Virus record (IMG/VR): IMGVR_UViG_3300043539_000498
Coordinates: 1-27,622 of that record
Reading direction: 5' to 3' (one strand)
DNA: 27,622 nucleotides
From: a virus
Each line of letters begins with the position of its first letter. Positions within the stretch are counted from its first letter, which is position 1. Shown piece by piece: positions 5,272-27,622 of the stretch. A program made the translations under genes and the position numbers. Below the pieces are notes generated by a model. It saw nothing but the letters and a program-made list of their open reading frames with translations, had not been told where the DNA came from and searched no databases.

Positions 5272-5609
5272 GTGTAGATGAACTAGCAAAAGAAATAGCC
5301 TCAAATATAGAGGATGGCGAGAACAACTACTCTTTTGATTTTGGTCTAATTGTAATTATTGGATCAATCATTATTGGAGTTCTTCAACTGCTAATGAAAT
5401 GCAATGTATTCGGAAGAAGTCTAGAAGATCGGGTTAAAAATCCCGGCCCATTAGACAAAATTCTATTACGTAAAGCTATAAAAGATAAACTTCCAAAAGA
5501 GTATGCCCATTTAAGACCACAAGTGCAGGATCTTATATTGGCAGAGTCAAAAAAAATAACATCGGAAAATTTTCAATCAATCGTTCAGGAGGCAAAAAAT
5601 GCAAACTAA
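5268..5609 (+). CDS. Small single-pass membrane protein, unknown
   Basis: The 113-residue product has one strong membrane segment, FGLIVIIGSIIIGVLQLLM, at about residues 25-43. An acidic N-terminus precedes it, and a basic, helical C-terminal region of about 65 residues follows. By the positive-inside rule the C-terminal part should face the cytoplasm. It starts within the stop of the upstream gene (ATGA) and overlaps the next by 11 bases. No family is recognised; it belongs to the membrane cassette after the cysteine peptidase. Confidence 0.65.
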   Translation: MSVDELAKEIASNIEDGENNYSFDFGLIVIIGSIIIGVLQLLMKCNVFGRSLEDRVKNPGPLDKILLRKAIKDKLPKEYAHLRPQVQDLILAESKKITSENFQSIVQEAKNAN

Positions 5610-5787
5610 AATTCAAGCATTGTTACAATCTCGCAGGTTCTGGGTTGCGGTAGCTGGCGTCTTAGCTGTAACAACAGAAAGTCTAGGAATTACTACCCTA
5701 AATTCAGAGCAAATTCAAAATATCGTTTTGTTGTGTGCAAGCTGGATTGTTGGCGATTCAGTTAGAAAGACAGAGGTATCACAATGA
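5599..5787 (+). CDS. Holin-like small membrane protein
   Basis: This 62-residue protein has two hydrophobic stretches, FWVAVAGVLAVTTESLGI and IVLLCASWIVGDSV. They are separated by a short NSEQIQ turn and flanked by basic ends. The size, two short membrane helices and charged C-terminus fit small phage holin-like proteins. AGGAGG lies about seven bases before the ATG. The position beside other membrane genes and a peptidase would suit a lysis function, but no lytic glycosidase or amidase is visible nearby. Holin is an inference from shape alone. Confidence 0.5.
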   Translation: MQTKIQALLQSRRFWVAVAGVLAVTTESLGITTLNSEQIQNIVLLCASWIVGDSVRKTEVSQ

Positions 5788-6074
5788 GTACAACTCAAAT
5801 AATTTTTTTAGGTCTTGGTATTGTTTTAATTCTATCATCTTTTGATTTCTCGTCTCTTCTTAAAAGACTAGAAAAAAAAGCTAGCGAAATAGACATTCCA
5901 AATATTATTCCAACACCAGCACCATCGCCGACTCCAGTCAATACAAAGGACAATTTAGTTGAAATTGTGCAAAAGTGGCAAGTCCTAAAGGATGCATGTG
6001 AAGAAAACAATCTATCGGAAGCTGTTATAAAACTAGATGAAATTTTCCCAATGTTAATTAAAGTGGATAAATAA
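5784..6074 (+). CDS. Signal-anchored small protein with Pro-rich linker
   Basis: The 96-residue product has an N-terminal membrane segment (IIFLGLGIVLILSSF), a basic helix, then a proline-rich spacer (IIPTPAPSPTPV). A final globular or helical domain of about 45 residues follows (VEIVQKWQVLKDACEENNL...). The layout of anchor, flexible spacer and small domain resembles Rz- or spanin-like envelope proteins in outline only. It overlaps the upstream stop (ATGA). The family is unknown. Confidence 0.6.
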   Translation: MSTTQIIFLGLGIVLILSSFDFSSLLKRLEKKASEIDIPNIIPTPAPSPTPVNTKDNLVEIVQKWQVLKDACEENNLSEAVIKLDEIFPMLIKVDK

Positions 6075-6075
6075 T

Positions 6076-6549
6076 ATGAAACCTAGAATATATTTAGGAA
6101 TTGTTTTTATATTGATTGGATTTTTTAGTGATAAAATTTCAGCAATTAATATTAATAAAGTTACAATACCATCAACTAATTACAACGAATTATTAGATTT
6201 GCAAAAACCTAATGATAAACTATATGATGAATTAAAAGATGTAAAATCTATTATATCAGGACCAGATGAAGTTTTTGATAGAGAAATTATTGCTATCTTT
6301 CATAATGAAATTGGCAAAAGGTTGCCCACTTATGAAAATATAACATCCATATCATTTGAAAATTTTTATGTGGAATCTGCTAAACTAACATTTAACAATA
6401 GACTTAGCAACAAATATAAGCCTTTAGGGGATAGAATGTATAAAATCATACTATCTACGCTTGGAGAAAATGAGGCAATCATAACTAAGGAAGAGCAGTT
6501 AGTTCTATCTGAAAAAATGAGAGCAATGGCTTGGATTTTATTAAATTAG
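6076..6549 (+). CDS. Exported or membrane-anchored protein, unknown
   Basis: The 157-residue product starts with a likely signal peptide or anchor (MKPRIYLGIVFILIGFFS) with a possible cleavage site near residues 20-25. It is followed by a soluble, mostly helical region with many charged residues and no cysteine pairs. It begins one base after the stop of the previous gene and is the last gene of the cassette: a new promoter starts directly after its stop. No family is recognised. Confidence 0.6.
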   Translation: MKPRIYLGIVFILIGFFSDKISAININKVTIPSTNYNELLDLQKPNDKLYDELKDVKSIISGPDEVFDREIIAIFHNEIGKRLPTYENITSISFENFYVESAKLTFNNRLSNKYKPLGDRMYKIILSTLGENEAIITKEEQLVLSEKMRAMAWILLN

Positions 6550-6551
6550 AC

Positions 6552-6594
6552 TTGACTTTTGAATGGGTTTTGGTATAATATACTAAAGCCCATT
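6552..6594 (+). promoter_or_regulatory. Sigma-70 promoter with a palindromic operator over the -10 box
   Basis: TTGACT (6552-6557) and TATAAT (6574-6579) are 16 bases apart. Bases 6562-6576 and 6580-6594 form an inverted repeat, 13 of 15 positions matching, centred on 6578. The -10 element therefore lies in the middle of a 33-bp dyad whose outer arms are AATGGG and CCCATT. There is no T-tract after it, which argues against a terminator and for a repressor or activator site. It would control the genes from 6612 onward. Confidence 0.72.
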
Positions 6595-6611
6595 ACAAAA
6601 AGGAGAAAACA

Positions 6612-6806
6612 ATGCAAAATCTAGATAAGATACTAAACGTATTAGAATCATATTATACTTTTAAAGTTAATGAACATTCGTATAAATTAAGTGAATTGCA
6701 TGACATTGATGATATAATTTTTAATTTTGAAGAATATAAAAAATATACAGAATGTTTAAACTTAATAAATAAAATGAGAGAAAATAAAAATGACGCCGAA
6801 GTATAA
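6612..6806 (+). CDS. Small acidic protein (64 aa), unknown
   Basis: This is the first gene after the operator-type promoter, with AGGAG about seven bases before the ATG. The product is small and highly charged, with a predicted helix-rich pattern (LDKILNVLESYYTF ... EEYKKYTECLNLINKM). It has no membrane segment or metal motif. Being first after a regulated promoter, it may be an autoregulator or an early protein, but I see no helix-turn-helix. It overlaps the next gene by 17 bases. Confidence 0.55.
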   Translation: MQNLDKILNVLESYYTFKVNEHSYKLSELHDIDDIIFNFEEYKKYTECLNLINKMRENKNDAEV

Positions 6807-7158
6807 TATATCCATATCACTAATTCCAGTGTTTGCAGATAAATCTAAAGATCAAACTAGCAAAGATTACTATAAAATACTATTAGATAATGAAAATAAA
6901 ATCATAACAAGATCTTTAATGGCTAGTCATCATAATTTAGAAGATTGTCTTCATCAAATATTTTCTGAATTTTTAAAAATAGATTACAATTGGGCTATGG
7001 TTACTCTTGCAGGATGTAGAAAAGTTAATACACACATAGAATTATTATATGTGTCTAATGCAATATACATGAATAATTGCAATAAAGACGGCCTATTTGT
7101 AAATACAAATGATTTCATGTCACTAATTACGGATAATTATTATGCAGAAAAAATCTGA
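6790..7158 (+). CDS. Unknown protein (122 aa) of the sigma-factor operon
   Basis: The product begins with alternating hydrophobic residues (YNISISLIPVFAD). It continues with DYYKILLDNENKIITRSL, which looks like paired beta strands, followed by a helix and further strands (MVTLAGCRKVNTHIELLYVSNAIYM). The profile suggests a small alpha/beta domain; the opening faintly resembles a Nudix-like strand pattern but lacks the Nudix box. It overlaps neighbours on both sides (17 bases each). No family is assigned. Confidence 0.5.
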   Translation: MTPKYNISISLIPVFADKSKDQTSKDYYKILLDNENKIITRSLMASHHNLEDCLHQIFSEFLKIDYNWAMVTLAGCRKVNTHIELLYVSNAIYMNNCNKDGLFVNTNDFMSLITDNYYAEKI

Positions 7159-7471
7159 TGGCGCAAATGAAATAGAAGAAGAAGAATTTCGCCCAAAATC
7201 TTTTATCATATTCTGTTTAGATGACGATGGAGAGATAGCCTTTGAAGCGTCTTGGGGAAACACGCCAGAAGATATAAAGAATTTTGCTACTCTGCTACAT
7301 CAAGTGAACAATGGAAATTTTGATACTATTATAGAAAGTCAACTAAAAGAACAGTCAAAAAATGAGCCTAACGGCTCAAAGAATTTCTCATTATTCTCTA
7401 AAACATATAAATCTCTTAATAGCCCTTCTATGCTAGTAATAGATCCAACGGAGGTGATATTAAATCAATGA
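7142..7471 (+). CDS. Unknown acidic protein (109 aa)
   Basis: The product has an acidic start (EIEEEEF), then an alpha/beta-looking core, SFIIFCLDDDGEIAFEASWG, followed by TPEDIKNFATLLHQVNNGNF. The DGEIxFExxWGxxxEDIKxFAxLL pattern could help future profile searches. There is no membrane helix. The ATGA overlap at the end couples it to the next gene. Within it lies a hairpin that would be a terminator for the opposite strand. Confidence 0.5.
   Translation: MQKKSDGANEIEEEEFRPKSFIIFCLDDDGEIAFEASWGNTPEDIKNFATLLHQVNNGNFDTIIESQLKEQSKNEPNGSKNFSLFSKTYKSLNSPSMLVIDPTEVILNQ
7357..7378 (-). terminator. Possible terminator acting on the minus strand
   Basis: TGAGCC (7363-7368) and GGCTCA (7373-7378) form a perfect 6-bp stem with a 4-base loop. 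On the minus strand the stem is followed by six T residues (complement of 7357-7362). It sits inside a + strand gene, so it could stop antisense transcription. The short stem makes chance occurrence possible. Confidence 0.35.
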
Positions 7472-7875
7472 AAAAAATAGCATGGGAAAACTGGAATGAA
7501 AAAGAAAAGGATTTAATTGAAATAAGTTCAATGGACTCTATAATGGGAAATGCGGATGATGAAATAGATGAAAATCAGTTAACTCAAATGGAAAGTATGC
7601 TAGGACCAATCATAGGAGATTTTAGAGCTAGTATTATACAAACTCCTTTTGGGTCAGTTCCAGCAGATTCAATTTTAAAGCCTTCCGATAGATGGGATTG
7701 TTGGATGGGATTTACCAATTTTGATATAACTATGAAAATATCCGACAGGATAAAAATTATTCATGGAGTTGAAGCGTTGAAGATAATGAGTAGATATACA
7801 TTTTGCGTAGGCGTAGGAAAAATGTTTAATTTTAGTTCTGTAAGAAAGGACATTGAAAATGCAGTCTGTAAGTAA
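7468..7875 (+). CDS. Unknown protein (135 aa) upstream of the sigma factor
   Basis: The product has an acidic first third (NADDEIDENQLTQMESMLG). A domain with conserved-looking aromatic and glycine residues follows (PSDRWDCWMGFTNFDI), then a hydrophobic, helix-like segment (ALKIMSRYTFCVGVGKMF). It begins within the upstream stop (ATGA) and overlaps the sigma-like gene by 17 bases. In this place it could be an anti-sigma or accessory factor, but nothing in the sequence proves it. Confidence 0.5.
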   Translation: MKKIAWENWNEKEKDLIEISSMDSIMGNADDEIDENQLTQMESMLGPIIGDFRASIIQTPFGSVPADSILKPSDRWDCWMGFTNFDITMKISDRIKIIHGVEALKIMSRYTFCVGVGKMFNFSSVRKDIENAVCK

Positions 7876-8362
7876 AGAAAAATTTCAAGAGGCATTGAAT
7901 AATGAATATTATTCTAAAATTTTACATAAAGTATGTAGAGAAAATTTAAATGGCGTGTGTAATAAAGATGAGATTAAGTCAATAATGATGAATACATTGT
8001 GGGATTGTCTAGGGAAATATAATAGTGCAAAAAATGTAAAATTCTCATCTTATTTATATAGAAGCATACAAAATAATAGTAGAAGAGTGTACAAAAAGAA
8101 GGCTAAAGAATTTAAAAATGTTCAAATCATAGATAATTTTCATTCAGTATTATCGTATGATAACAAAGCAAAAGAAGAAGTTAGGGATATTTTAAACGAT
8201 CTACAAAGTAAAAACGCTGAATTGCATCAGGTTATTATTCAAAAATTCTATTATAGAATGACGAATAAAGAAATTGGTGAAGCTAATGGATATGGAAAAG
8301 AAGCTGCAAGAAAAAAATTAAAAAAAGCTATAGAATTGTGTCGTGAATTGTGTATACTATAG
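7859..8362 (+). CDS. Sigma-70 family-like RNA polymerase sigma factor
   Basis: The start is placed at ATG 7859 because AAAGGA ends eight bases upstream; a TTG two codons earlier lies too close to it. The 167-residue product has a region 2-like helix (NTLWDCLGKYNSAKNVKFSSYLYRS followed by NNSRR) with the usual F-x-S/T-Y-L pattern. At about residues 135-155 it has a region 4-like helix-turn-helix (MTNKEIGEANGYGKEAARKKLKKAI). The layout and size match ECF or phage late sigma factors lacking regions 1 and 3. It ends in two consecutive TAG codons. It probably directs RNA polymerase to a subset of phage promoters, perhaps late ones. The target motif is unknown. Confidence 0.75.
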   Translation: MQSVSKEKFQEALNNEYYSKILHKVCRENLNGVCNKDEIKSIMMNTLWDCLGKYNSAKNVKFSSYLYRSIQNNSRRVYKKKAKEFKNVQIIDNFHSVLSYDNKAKEEVRDILNDLQSKNAELHQVIIQKFYYRMTNKEIGEANGYGKEAARKKLKKAIELCRELCIL

Positions 8363-8433
8363 TAGGAAAAGGAACCAAATATTACGGACAATAGGGAAAT
8401 AGATATTATATTTTATAAAAATGGAGAATTATC

Positions 8434-9066
8434 ATGGTTCCAAGCTCAAATAGTCATTTAAAAAATACCACTGGTGGCTCATATACAGCTCAACGCCAAG
8501 GTGGTACACTTATTGGATTATCTACCGCTACTTCAATTGTTACAAAAGCAATTCAAGTTAAAGATGTAAATCAAGTCGATCAAACAATCTATCCGGGGCC
8601 AAGAGAATTGAGTGGTGCTAAGACATACAACACCGCTAAAATTCTTTCCGGTGGAACATTCGCTTACAATTCCAATAGCAGATCAGGAAATACTTGGTTG
8701 ATCTCTAGAGTTGCAACAACTCTTGCTGGCGTATCCAAGACTTTCTTGCTGTTTATGGCAAATACAGTTACAGGTCCAAAGTATCCTTATTTTATTAAGG
8801 ATAGCTATGACAACAGCGCAACATTGATTCGCAAGAATCAGTTCAGTCGTACTGGCTGGAATACAGATGGTACAAAAATTAAGAAGAGAACTTCATGGAT
8901 TACAGATCCAACTGGTGCAGTGCCAGCTACAGCTGACTTTGGCACTTCAACATCTATTCCAACAAGAGCTATTCCGGGCGAATTATACATCTTGAATAAC
9001 TTCGTGACGTATAATCCAGCCACTTCATCTAATAAATATAACTACTCGGCCATTACTGGTAAGTAA
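8434..9066 (+). CDS. Gly/Ser/Thr-rich protein, possible virion component
   Basis: This 210-residue protein is rich in Thr, Ser, Gly and Asn, with few long helices (TGGSYTAQRQGGTLIGLSTA, LSGAKTYNTAKILSGGTFAYN). It looks like a beta-rich structural protein. It has GGAG about nine bases before the ATG and a strong intrinsic terminator directly after it. Its codons are richer in GC than the flanking small genes, which fits high expression. It follows the sigma-like factor, as a late gene would. No capsid or tail family is recognised; virion protein is inferred from composition and context. Confidence 0.5.
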   Translation: MVPSSNSHLKNTTGGSYTAQRQGGTLIGLSTATSIVTKAIQVKDVNQVDQTIYPGPRELSGAKTYNTAKILSGGTFAYNSNSRSGNTWLISRVATTLAGVSKTFLLFMANTVTGPKYPYFIKDSYDNSATLIRKNQFSRTGWNTDGTKIKKRTSWITDPTGAVPATADFGTSTSIPTRAIPGELYILNNFVTYNPATSSNKYNYSAITGK

Positions 9067-9075
9067 TTAAACTCA

Positions 9076-9108
9076 GGGGGATTGGGATTCCCAGTCCCCT
9101 TTATTTTT
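9076..9108 (+). terminator. Strong rho-independent terminator
   Basis: GGGG-A-T-T-GGG (9077-9086) pairs with CCC-A-G-T-CCCC (9090-9099), ten pairs with one G-U around a 3-base loop. It is followed by TTTATTTTT. It ends the transcription unit that begins at the promoter near 6552. Confidence 0.9.
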
Positions 9109-23704: not shown

Positions 23705-24732
23705 TCACTACTTACTTTAGATCATCCAGTCTTAATAACTGGAAATACTGTGAACTCCAATACTTTATGACATACGTTCTCGGACATTATTCTCCGTCAG
23801 GAAAAAAGGCGGATTTGGGAACGATAACGCACGCAGTGCTTGAAACTTTAGCAATATGTAAAAAGAGAACCCAGTTTAATAAAAGATCAACAATGAAAAT
23901 CACTCAGGAACCCTTGGGTGACTTTTCCTTCACTGACGCTGAATTATATACAGAGGCATTTGTAAATAAAGTGTTAGATAGAAGTTTTGAATTCTATAAA
24001 GCAAATTCCAAGCATAATGAATTCAACGAGAAAGATTATCAGTTTTGTTATAAGATGGTATGGGATACTTTAGGATATAACAATGGTCAATTTGATCCAC
24101 GTAATCGCAAAGTGATTGATACAGAACCCCACTTTGATATCCCAATTTTGGAAGACTGGGCAAAGTTTGAGTTTGAATTGCCGAACGGGGAAAAAATGTC
24201 TGGAAATCTTGCTATCAAAGGAACAATCGACCTTGTAACCGAGATGGAAGATGGTACAATAGAAGTAATCGATTGGAAGACTGGACAGAGGCTTGATTGG
24301 GCCACTGGAGAGCGTAAGGACTACGATAAACTAATGAAGGATACTCAATTGCTGTTATATCACTATGCAGTTAGTAAAATGTATCCTAAATATAGAAATT
24401 CGATCATGACTATCTTTTTCTGTAGAGATGGTGGACCTTTCTCTCTTGCGTTTGATAAAGAGGATGATGATAAATTTCTTCTATATTTGAAAGATATGTT
24501 TAAGGAGATTGTATTAAATCAAAATCCTAAACCAATATCTAAAGATAGAGGAAGTTTTAAATGTCAAAAGCTTTGTCATTACTATAAAACAAATTGGCAA
24601 GACACTAATCAAACTATGTGTCACCATATTGATAATCAATTACAAACTATTGGAATGGCTGAAACAGTTAAGAATTTCTCTAAGCCCGGTTTCACCATTG
24701 GAAAATATAAAGATCCGGGAGCTGTGGAATGA
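23701..24732 (+). CDS. RecB/Cas4-like PD-(D/E)XK nuclease, probable Fe-S cluster
   Basis: The 343-residue product matches the RecB/Cas4 nuclease group. It has an early Cys in NNWKYCELQYF, then His in GTITHAVLE, Asp in IKGTIDLV, the Glu-x-x-Asp-x-Lys core in EVIDWKTG, and the QLLLYHYAV motif. Three later cysteines (KCQKLCHYY and TMCHH) plus the early one could hold an iron-sulphur cluster, as in Cas4 and AddB. It probably processes DNA ends for recombination or replication. It starts in the stop of the kinase gene and overlaps dnaE (ATGA). A terminator-like hairpin lies near 23900. Confidence 0.85.
   Translation: MITTYFRSSSLNNWKYCELQYFMTYVLGHYSPSGKKADLGTITHAVLETLAICKKRTQFNKRSTMKITQEPLGDFSFTDAELYTEAFVNKVLDRSFEFYKANSKHNEFNEKDYQFCYKMVWDTLGYNNGQFDPRNRKVIDTEPHFDIPILEDWAKFEFELPNGEKMSGNLAIKGTIDLVTEMEDGTIEVIDWKTGQRLDWATGERKDYDKLMKDTQLLLYHYAVSKMYPKYRNSIMTIFFCRDGGPFSLAFDKEDDDKFLLYLKDMFKEIVLNQNPKPISKDRGSFKCQKLCHYYKTNWQDTNQTMCHHIDNQLQTIGMAETVKNFSKPGFTIGKYKDPGAVE
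23900..23926 (+). terminator. Weak terminator-like hairpin inside the nuclease gene
   Basis: Bases 23900-23908 pair with 23913-23921 over nine pairs, two of them G-U, around a 4-base loop, followed by CTTTTCC. It is weaker than the others and may be chance. Confidence 0.3.
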
Positions 24733-26231
24733 TATTGCCAGTTATAACAACACACTATTCATTATTGAAAGGTTTCATCAAACCAGATGAAGCTGCCAAG
24801 AAATGTAAAGAATTAGGTTATACTCATTGCTTAATTGCTGATATTGAAACTATTAGTGGTGTTGTTGATTTCTTCAATGCCATAAATAAAGCTGGGATTG
24901 TACCCATTCTTGGAATGCAAGCCGACAATGGGTATTACATTGCTAAATCCCTAAAAGGATATAGAGCTTTAATTAAGTTAGCATCTAAAGAGAAGATAGA
25001 ATATGCCAAAGAAGACATGCAATTTTACACAGAAGATCAACTAGCAGTTATGCCAGTTTATTATGCTGAACAAAATGATGCAATTCTTCATAGGATGGTA
25101 TTGTGTCTTAACTTTAAAACTACACTCAAGAGAGCTAAAGATGTGGACATGGGAGAATATAAAAAGTTTTTCGAGTCTGATCATTATTTCTTTCATCCGG
25201 TCCATAGGATTATACCTAGCGAAAAGCAATATTTTGGAACTAAACAGTTATATTCTGAATTACAACAGTATAGCATTCTTTCTAAGCCTAAATTACCTCG
25301 CGTAGATTGTGGAGATATGTCTGAGAATGATTATCTAACACAATTATGTAGAAATGGCTGGCGAGCAAAACTTATGCATTTAAAAGATGATAAGAAGAAG
25401 GAATATACTAATCGTATTAAGTATGAGTTGTCTGTTATTCATGGATTTGAACTATCTGGATACTTTTTAATTGTGCAAGACATTATTAACTATGTAAGAA
25501 AGAATGATTGGCTACCGGGACCGGGGCGTGGAAGTGCTGGTGGATGTTTAGTATCATATTTACTTGGGATTATTGATATTGATCCCATGAAATACGATTT
25601 ACTATTCTCTAGATTTTTAAATGCTGGTCGATTTACTAAAGACAACATCTCATTGCCCGATATTGATATGGACGTTCCATCCGTTCACCGTGATGAAATT
25701 ATTGACTATATCAAGAACAAGTATGGCAATGAAAGAGTGTATCAGATGATTACATTTGGTCGTTTACAGGGTAGATCAGCAGTCAAGGATGTTGCTAGAG
25801 TTTATGGGGACTTATCTTTTAGTGAGTTAAATGAGATCACTGAGAGTTTACCACAAGAAGCTAGCATCTCGGATGAGCTGGAAGAAATGGATATCAAATC
25901 AGTTATTCGATGGACTCTTGAAAATGATCCAAAGAAACTTGAAAAGTGGTGTAGAATTGATAAGGAAGGTAATTTGTCTGGTGAGTTGTCAGATCTGTTC
26001 TCTCTTGCTATAAGAATAGAAGGAACTTATAAATCTCAAGGAAAACACCCGGCAGGAGTAATTATTTCTAATGAAGATCTAATCAATGATGCACCTCTTA
26101 TCACAGATAAGAATGGTCATAGATTAGTCGCATTTGAAATGCATGACTTGGATAAGGTTGGTTTGACTAAATTTGATGTGCTTGGGATTAACTTACTAGA
26201 TAAAATTATGCAGATTACAGATAAGGATTAA
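24729..26231 (+). CDS. dnaE: DNA polymerase III alpha subunit, N-terminal fragment (PHP and palm)
   Basis: The 500-residue product is the first part of a bacterial-type DnaE. A PHP-like N-terminus (THYSLLKG, LIADIETISG) is short and has lost the usual metal-binding His residues. The palm follows, with PGPGRGSAGG near 266-275 and the catalytic pair Asp 313 and Asp 315 in PDIDMD. Then come SQGKHPAGVIIS and GLTKFDVLG with the third Asp at 483. The protein stops 17 residues later, so all three catalytic aspartates are present but fingers and beta-binding parts are missing. Those continue in a separate gene at 27161. Two other genes lie between. No intein sequence is visible at the break. Confidence 0.92.
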   Translation: MILPVITTHYSLLKGFIKPDEAAKKCKELGYTHCLIADIETISGVVDFFNAINKAGIVPILGMQADNGYYIAKSLKGYRALIKLASKEKIEYAKEDMQFYTEDQLAVMPVYYAEQNDAILHRMVLCLNFKTTLKRAKDVDMGEYKKFFESDHYFFHPVHRIIPSEKQYFGTKQLYSELQQYSILSKPKLPRVDCGDMSENDYLTQLCRNGWRAKLMHLKDDKKKEYTNRIKYELSVIHGFELSGYFLIVQDIINYVRKNDWLPGPGRGSAGGCLVSYLLGIIDIDPMKYDLLFSRFLNAGRFTKDNISLPDIDMDVPSVHRDEIIDYIKNKYGNERVYQMITFGRLQGRSAVKDVARVYGDLSFSELNEITESLPQEASISDELEEMDIKSVIRWTLENDPKKLEKWCRIDKEGNLSGELSDLFSLAIRIEGTYKSQGKHPAGVIISNEDLINDAPLITDKNGHRLVAFEMHDLDKVGLTKFDVLGINLLDKIMQITDKD

Positions 26232-27151: not shown

Positions 27152-27160
27152 GAGGAACTA

Positions 27161-27622
27161 ATGGTTCAAATTGAAGATATCAAAAATTTTGACGACGAAG
27201 CGACTTGGGATCTGATTTGCAGCGGAAGAACTAAAGGGGTTTTTCAATTAGAATCCAGATTGGGTTCCAGTTGGGCAAAAAGGGCGCAGCCTCGCTCTAT
27301 CGAGGAATTAGCTGACTTAGTATCCATTATTCGCCCCGGCACGCTAGAGGCCGAATTAGACGGCAAATCTATGACCAAGCACTACACAGATCGCAAAGCT
27401 AAGATTGACGAGACTAAATACTTACACCCAGCATTGGAGACGGTGCTGGGTAAAACTTATGGAATTATCGTTTATCAAGAGCAAGCTATGCGTATTGCTA
27501 CAGAGATTGCTGGCTTTACACCTGAAGAGGCCGATTCACTTCGTAAAGCTATGGGTAAAAAAGATGCGGCACTTATGAAAGAAGTTGAAGAGAAGTTTAT
27601 CAATGGAGCTAAGACTAAAGGA
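27161..27622 (+). CDS. dnaE: DNA polymerase III alpha subunit, fingers fragment (partial)
   Basis: ATG 27161 follows AGAGGAAC and opens a frame that runs off the window. The 154 visible residues continue DnaE exactly where the first fragment ends: GRTKGVFQLESRLG, LVSIIRPGTLE, HPALETVLGKTYGIIVYQEQAMRIA, and ADSLRKAMGKKDAAL. These are the fingers-region signatures (GVFQLES, RPG, YGIxxYQEQ, RRAMGKK). It has its own start codon and ribosome site, so it is expressed as a separate protein and must assemble with the N-terminal part. The C-terminus is unseen. Its first 250 bases are visibly richer in GC than the neighbours. Confidence 0.92.
   Translation, partial: MVQIEDIKNFDDEATWDLICSGRTKGVFQLESRLGSSWAKRAQPRSIEELADLVSIIRPGTLEAELDGKSMTKHYTDRKAKIDETKYLHPALETVLGKTYGIIVYQEQAMRIATEIAGFTPEEADSLRKAMGKKDAALMKEVEEKFINGAKTKG

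Follow-up and report, generated by a model that had tools for sequence, protein, structure and literature searches.

In phage T7, RNase III sites stand beside T7 promoters; they are processing hairpins cut by RNase III, and the promoters belong to the phage polymerase. The junction described here comes from part of the genome of an uncultured phage; this fragment is a virus record of 27,622 bases and is called the window below. The junction is like the T7 sites in bringing a hairpin and a promoter together at a border between gene blocks, and the RNase III cleavage and the phage polymerase set the T7 sites apart.

The closest known design is found in phage T4, in gene e and I-TevI. For genes e, soc, 49 and I-TevI, a promoter is placed in the DNA that encodes the 5' side of a hairpin, which forms in read-through transcripts only (PMC3014915, PMC2988022). 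In gene e and I-TevI the promoter is a late one and the hairpin closes the Shine-Dalgarno site or the AUG in early read-through RNA (PMC3014915, PMC2988022). Our junction shares with these four genes a promoter within hairpin-coding DNA and a promoter-started RNA that would lack the 5' arm. It differs from the T4 leaders in having a sigma-70-type promoter, a -10 box at the apex of the hairpin and a Shine-Dalgarno site outside the stem. In part it would act as they do, but we do not class it with the gene e type because the test for sequestration only in read-through RNA failed. Shine-Dalgarno sequestration is rejected as the explanation, since the computed openness of the site is inconsistent among haplotypes.

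In Aeromonas phage 25, seg43 has a stable hairpin, and the downstream gene is a homing endonuclease (PMC2988022). In both cases a ribosome-binding site that is not sequestered follows directly on the base of the hairpin, but our junction also has a putative sigma-70 promoter at the apex, which the passages on seg43 do not describe (PMC2988022). The likeness to intrinsic (rho-independent) terminators is a stable RNA hairpin shortly past a stop codon, with U-rich tails in most relatives. Unlike them, the window and one relative (L074) lack the tail, a promoter sits in the apex and a Shine-Dalgarno site adjoins the stem. A literature search of partial coverage returned no matching phage description of an overlapping terminator and promoter. 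The junction is best called a putative sigma-70 promoter with its -10 box as the apex of a terminator-like hairpin. Stop and start signals are probably combined in this palindrome, and the protein-binding operator first proposed for it is unlikely.

The junction and its genes

The upstream block ends with a gene of 157 aa (6076-6549, + strand) whose product has an N-terminal hydrophobic segment and no match in Pfam or PHROG. Orthologs that are 51-82% identical directly precede the same junction in relatives, and none of the bacterial genomes searched carries the gene. On the other side, the Shine-Dalgarno sequence AAGGAG (6600-6605, +) precedes a 64-aa ORF (6612-6806, +) that opens the downstream operon. 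This ORF is an extra in the window; the relatives inspected start directly with the ortholog of the gene after it. Three genes follow on the same strand (6790-7158, 7142-7471 and 7468-7875), to which Pfam and PHROG assign no function and which keep an identical order in relatives. The operon closes with a sigma-like gene (7859-8362, +), which matches PHROG 1740 (sigma factor) at 1.1e-8 and Pfam Sigma70_r2 at 3.6e-5, narrowly missing the cut-off, with r4 at 0.0024. The starts of its orthologs suggest that it probably begins at ATG 7859 and not at TTG 7853. Apart from the extra ORF, gene order at the junction is identical in the six relatives inspected.

Between these two units lies a near-palindrome with arms AATGGGTTTTGGTAT (6562-6576) and ATACTAAAGCCCATT (6580-6594). 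AAT stands between the arms, and 13 of their 15 positions are complementary. The two that do not match are T/G and G/T, which are G·U wobbles in + strand RNA, a point that the initial annotation had passed over. Read as + strand RNA, 6562-6594 is predicted to fold into an unbroken 15-bp stem (13 Watson-Crick and two G·U pairs) with the loop AAU, at a dG of -22.1 kcal/mol and a z of -4.95; none of 200 shuffles folded as well. Its score of 31.0 puts it among the two strongest gapless hairpins of the 27.6-kb window; in 20 dinucleotide-shuffled windows of that length no hairpin scored above 28.0. The hairpin starts 12 nt past the stop codon of the upstream unit's last gene, the position of the stable hairpin in an intrinsic terminator, and ends 5 nt ahead of AAGGAG. 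An Rfam search of the window returned zero families at gathering score.

The same DNA carries a putative promoter. The -35 box TTGACT (6552-6557, +) is followed by a 16-bp spacer, within the usual 16-18 bp, and TATAAT (6574-6579), and the two hexamers agree with the consensus at 11 of 12 positions. TGG before the -10 box makes it an extended -10 (TGG-TATAAT, 6571-6579, +), placed at the hairpin apex. From sigma-70 promoter geometry the transcription start is predicted near 6586 on the + strand, about 7 nt past the -10 box and within the 3' arm. We infer the start, the promoter activity and termination from sequence. The initial annotation had already noticed 15-nt arms matching at 13 positions around the TATAAT, with TTGACT correctly spaced, and all of this stands. 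It also proposed a promoter ahead of an operon whose last gene is sigma-like, which agrees with a putative sigma-70-type promoter whose boxes are conserved at 12 distinct orthologous junctions. Its remark that the palindrome is followed by no T-tract holds for the window (ATTACAAAAAGGAG) and fails for most relatives.

Covariation among relatives

A search with the upstream protein found 17 loci with the same junction, which together with the window give 12 distinct versions, ranging from near-identity to 51% protein identity. All of the relatives are uncultured phages, and the region 5500-8500 has no DNA-level relatives among cultured phages. The arms remain paired in 11 of the 12 versions even though their sequence has changed, as in L059 (GGGCTTGGTA...TACTAAGCCC), L062 (AGGTCTAGTA...TACTAGACCT) and L074 (GGTGGATGGT...ACTGTCCACC). 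Nine core pairs can be followed through 11 hairpin haplotypes; all 99 cells hold standard pairs, none is broken, and six of the pairs show changes on both sides. This 100% pairing compares with 85.8% (sd 1.7) in shuffles, none of 500 reaching as high, and with no more than 51.5% once the partners are shifted along the alignment (42-52% for a shift of one column). On the upstream-gene tree, which is moderately supported, parsimony counts 22 changes of pair state and zero broken states.

The departures from Watson-Crick pairing are all of one kind. On the + strand 16 of the 99 core cells are G·U and none is A·C, though eight of the 16 sit at a single site that is linked to the extended -10 motif and so represent fewer independent events. 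Not every stem pair is free to vary, because this motif limits which bases some of the left arm can carry. The longer gapless stems contain 26 G·U pairs, and no stems to match them arise if A·C is permitted in place of G·U. RNA from the + strand of the junctions folds at -17 to -25 kcal/mol, against -7 to -16 for the - strand. In alignment A2 six versions have a nine-pair helix that covers 25 bp, four have one of 26 bp, and that of L071 covers 33 bp. We conclude that these data fit selection acting on an RNA hairpin, since the arms covary, the asymmetry is G·U only, and the variable span is one that a loop would tolerate and a protein dimer would not.

Conservation of the promoter is of a different kind, with TTGA and TATAAT invariant in the 11 aligned haplotypes. 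One 33-bp stretch appears to bear two signals, a promoter at the level of DNA and a hairpin at the level of RNA. Both are kept in orthologous junctions with protein identity as low as 56%, and paired changes rewrite the arms around a constant TATAAT. The distant relative L075 keeps both promoter boxes and has lost the hairpin. There the ATG and the -10 box overlap, and expression of the first gene would therefore have to come from upstream transcripts.

A covariance model gives one strong match in each relative's record, always at the junction. Pattern and covariance searches both return a single strong copy per record, and we reject a repeated regulatory element for that reason. A perfect hairpin around GTATAATATAC in an unrelated viral contig (L004:5300-5366) is excluded as evidence, having no convincing -35 box and a core that the search pattern itself required. 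It lies just ahead of a start codon in a 110-nt stretch that folds at -47.5 kcal/mol, and its outer stem covers the Shine-Dalgarno site.

A hairpin joined to a putative promoter

The reading we favour, with somewhat better than even confidence, is that the palindromic DNA encodes an RNA hairpin at the end of the upstream unit and is fused to the host-type sigma-70 promoter of the next. Polymerase arriving from upstream would transcribe the whole hairpin, which would stop it or otherwise insulate the read-through message; termination in the style of an intrinsic terminator seems the most likely outcome. Polymerase started at the promoter would begin near 6586, inside the 3' arm, and the hairpin would be absent from its RNA. 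A leader of about 26 nt would then run straight into a free Shine-Dalgarno site.

The case for termination comes from the position of the hairpin at the end of a gene block, from the tails and from two further junctions of these phages. In eight of the 10 haplotypes checked, the 8 nt that follow the last G-C pair are U-rich, with four to six T, and the ten have a higher mean tail score than pre-Shine-Dalgarno sites in the same phages (P about 7e-4, a value that carries no phylogenetic correction). The spacer between stem and ribosome-binding site (6595-6599, +) is U-rich in most relatives and A-rich in the window. The window's tail (ATTACAAAAAGG) is not U-rich (P 0.35), nor is that of L074. 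Termination is argued at the level of the family and more weakly for the window, because the U-rich tail is absent from these two; in them it may be weak or replaced by some other role. Ordinary terminators made of a hairpin and a T-run stand immediately ahead of Shine-Dalgarno sites at the two further junctions of the window, 2485-2506 and 9075-9101, and this order is conserved there in relatives.

The junction may separate blocks of genes expressed at different times, since the operon it would drive ends in a sigma-like gene. A more elaborate scheme, which we consider distinctly doubtful, would make it a two-way switch. Upstream polymerases would cross the promoter before the hairpin stopped them, so heavy upstream transcription would occlude the promoter of the sigma operon. 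The hairpin would bar upstream transcripts from that operon, and the sigma-like factor would be timed to a silent upstream block. As a compact stop-and-start part, the junction is testable in vitro.

Alternative explanations

The first alternative is that the hairpin insulates translation or RNA processing. In read-through RNA it would hinder the adjacent ribosome-binding site or mark a boundary for cleavage or decay without stopping polymerase, and promoter-started RNA, lacking the 5' arm, would be translated freely as in T4 gene e and I-TevI. The stem ends just 5-12 nt or so upstream of the Shine-Dalgarno site, the T4 cases are precedents (PMC3014915, PMC2988022), and the U-tract that the window lacks would not be required. 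In five of the 11 hairpin haplotypes (L059, L060, L068, L069 and L070) the predicted opening of the site is at least 5-fold lower in read-through RNA than in RNA begun at the promoter. However, the window's own site is equally open in both RNAs (P 0.20 and 0.23), L062, L063 and L074 show the reversed sign, and termination is what the U-rich tails found in most relatives suggest. We regard this explanation as possible but rather unlikely.

The initial annotation had taken the palindrome for an operator, on which a dimeric or tetrameric regulator would repress or activate the promoter. The dyad does cover the -10 box with 13/15 symmetry. The conservation in relatives on which that proposal was to stand or fall divides in two; pairing is conserved, but the sequence of the half-sites is not. 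Their spacing is not fixed either, and the spans of 25, 26 and 33 bp would place them on different helical faces. In a DNA dyad G/T and A/C asymmetries are equivalent, being the same thing viewed from two strands, but only G·U is seen and never A·C. Nor does the window hold a further copy beyond what chance would give: the dyad search that the initial annotation had suggested finds the exact dyad once, and two matches elsewhere with two mismatches are at chance level. A 155-kb relative has 35 correctly spaced TTGAC/TATAAT sites, all on one strand, where the control has two; a strong hairpin occurs at one of the 35, the orthologous one (score 23.5, the others at most 12.5), and the dyad is absent at its other promoters. 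The covariation, the asymmetry confined to G·U and the varying spacing therefore lead us to reject the operator, which we consider highly improbable. A palindrome that covers a -10 box ought to be examined for a G·U bias before it is called an operator.

Least credible of all is that a cruciform, or a hairpin in single-stranded DNA, exposes the promoter or hides it, in the manner of single-strand plasmid promoters. The + strand does fold when treated as DNA (-11.5 kcal/mol, z -3.66), but the sole type of departure is G·T, which stabilises DNA poorly, the boxes look like those of an ordinary duplex promoter, and RNA better suits the U-rich tails and the placement of the Shine-Dalgarno site.

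Other observations

In the 155-kb relative, more than 25 near-consensus TTGAC/TATAAT promoters are packed together on one strand between 86 and 126 kb (L050-L051), often preceding short ORFs and, at least once, a tRNA-like sequence.

The stretch that separates the sigma-like gene from the one after it, 8363-8410, holds a strongly conserved purine-rich leader (TAGGAAAAGGAACC ... GGACAATAGGGAAA) that occurs once per relative. It is possibly a phage-specific promoter or a translation leader.

Pfam matches of 2.5e-42 and 1.1e-8 give the phage gene at 1338-2462 a DUF1559 product with a methylation motif like that of type IV pilins. This product is 76-79% identical over nearly its full length to genes from bacterial MAGs, three of them titled Candidatus Kuenenia (planctomycete), a similarity that suggests a planctomycete host. 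Ahead of it, at 1245-1308, a perfect TTGACA-17-TATAAT promoter is followed about 10 nt on by a strong hairpin and a T-rich stretch, and the arrangement is kept in relatives. This hairpin lies at the extreme 5' end of the predicted DUF1559 transcript and resembles an attenuator leader.

Finally, DNA polymerase III alpha appears to be split in the window. One ORF (24729-26231) carries the PHP and polymerase NTPase domains, and an apparent continuation with the motif VFQLES lies about 0.9 kb later, at roughly 27160-27622, where it is cut by the end of the record. A small ORF and an exonuclease gene lie between the two halves.
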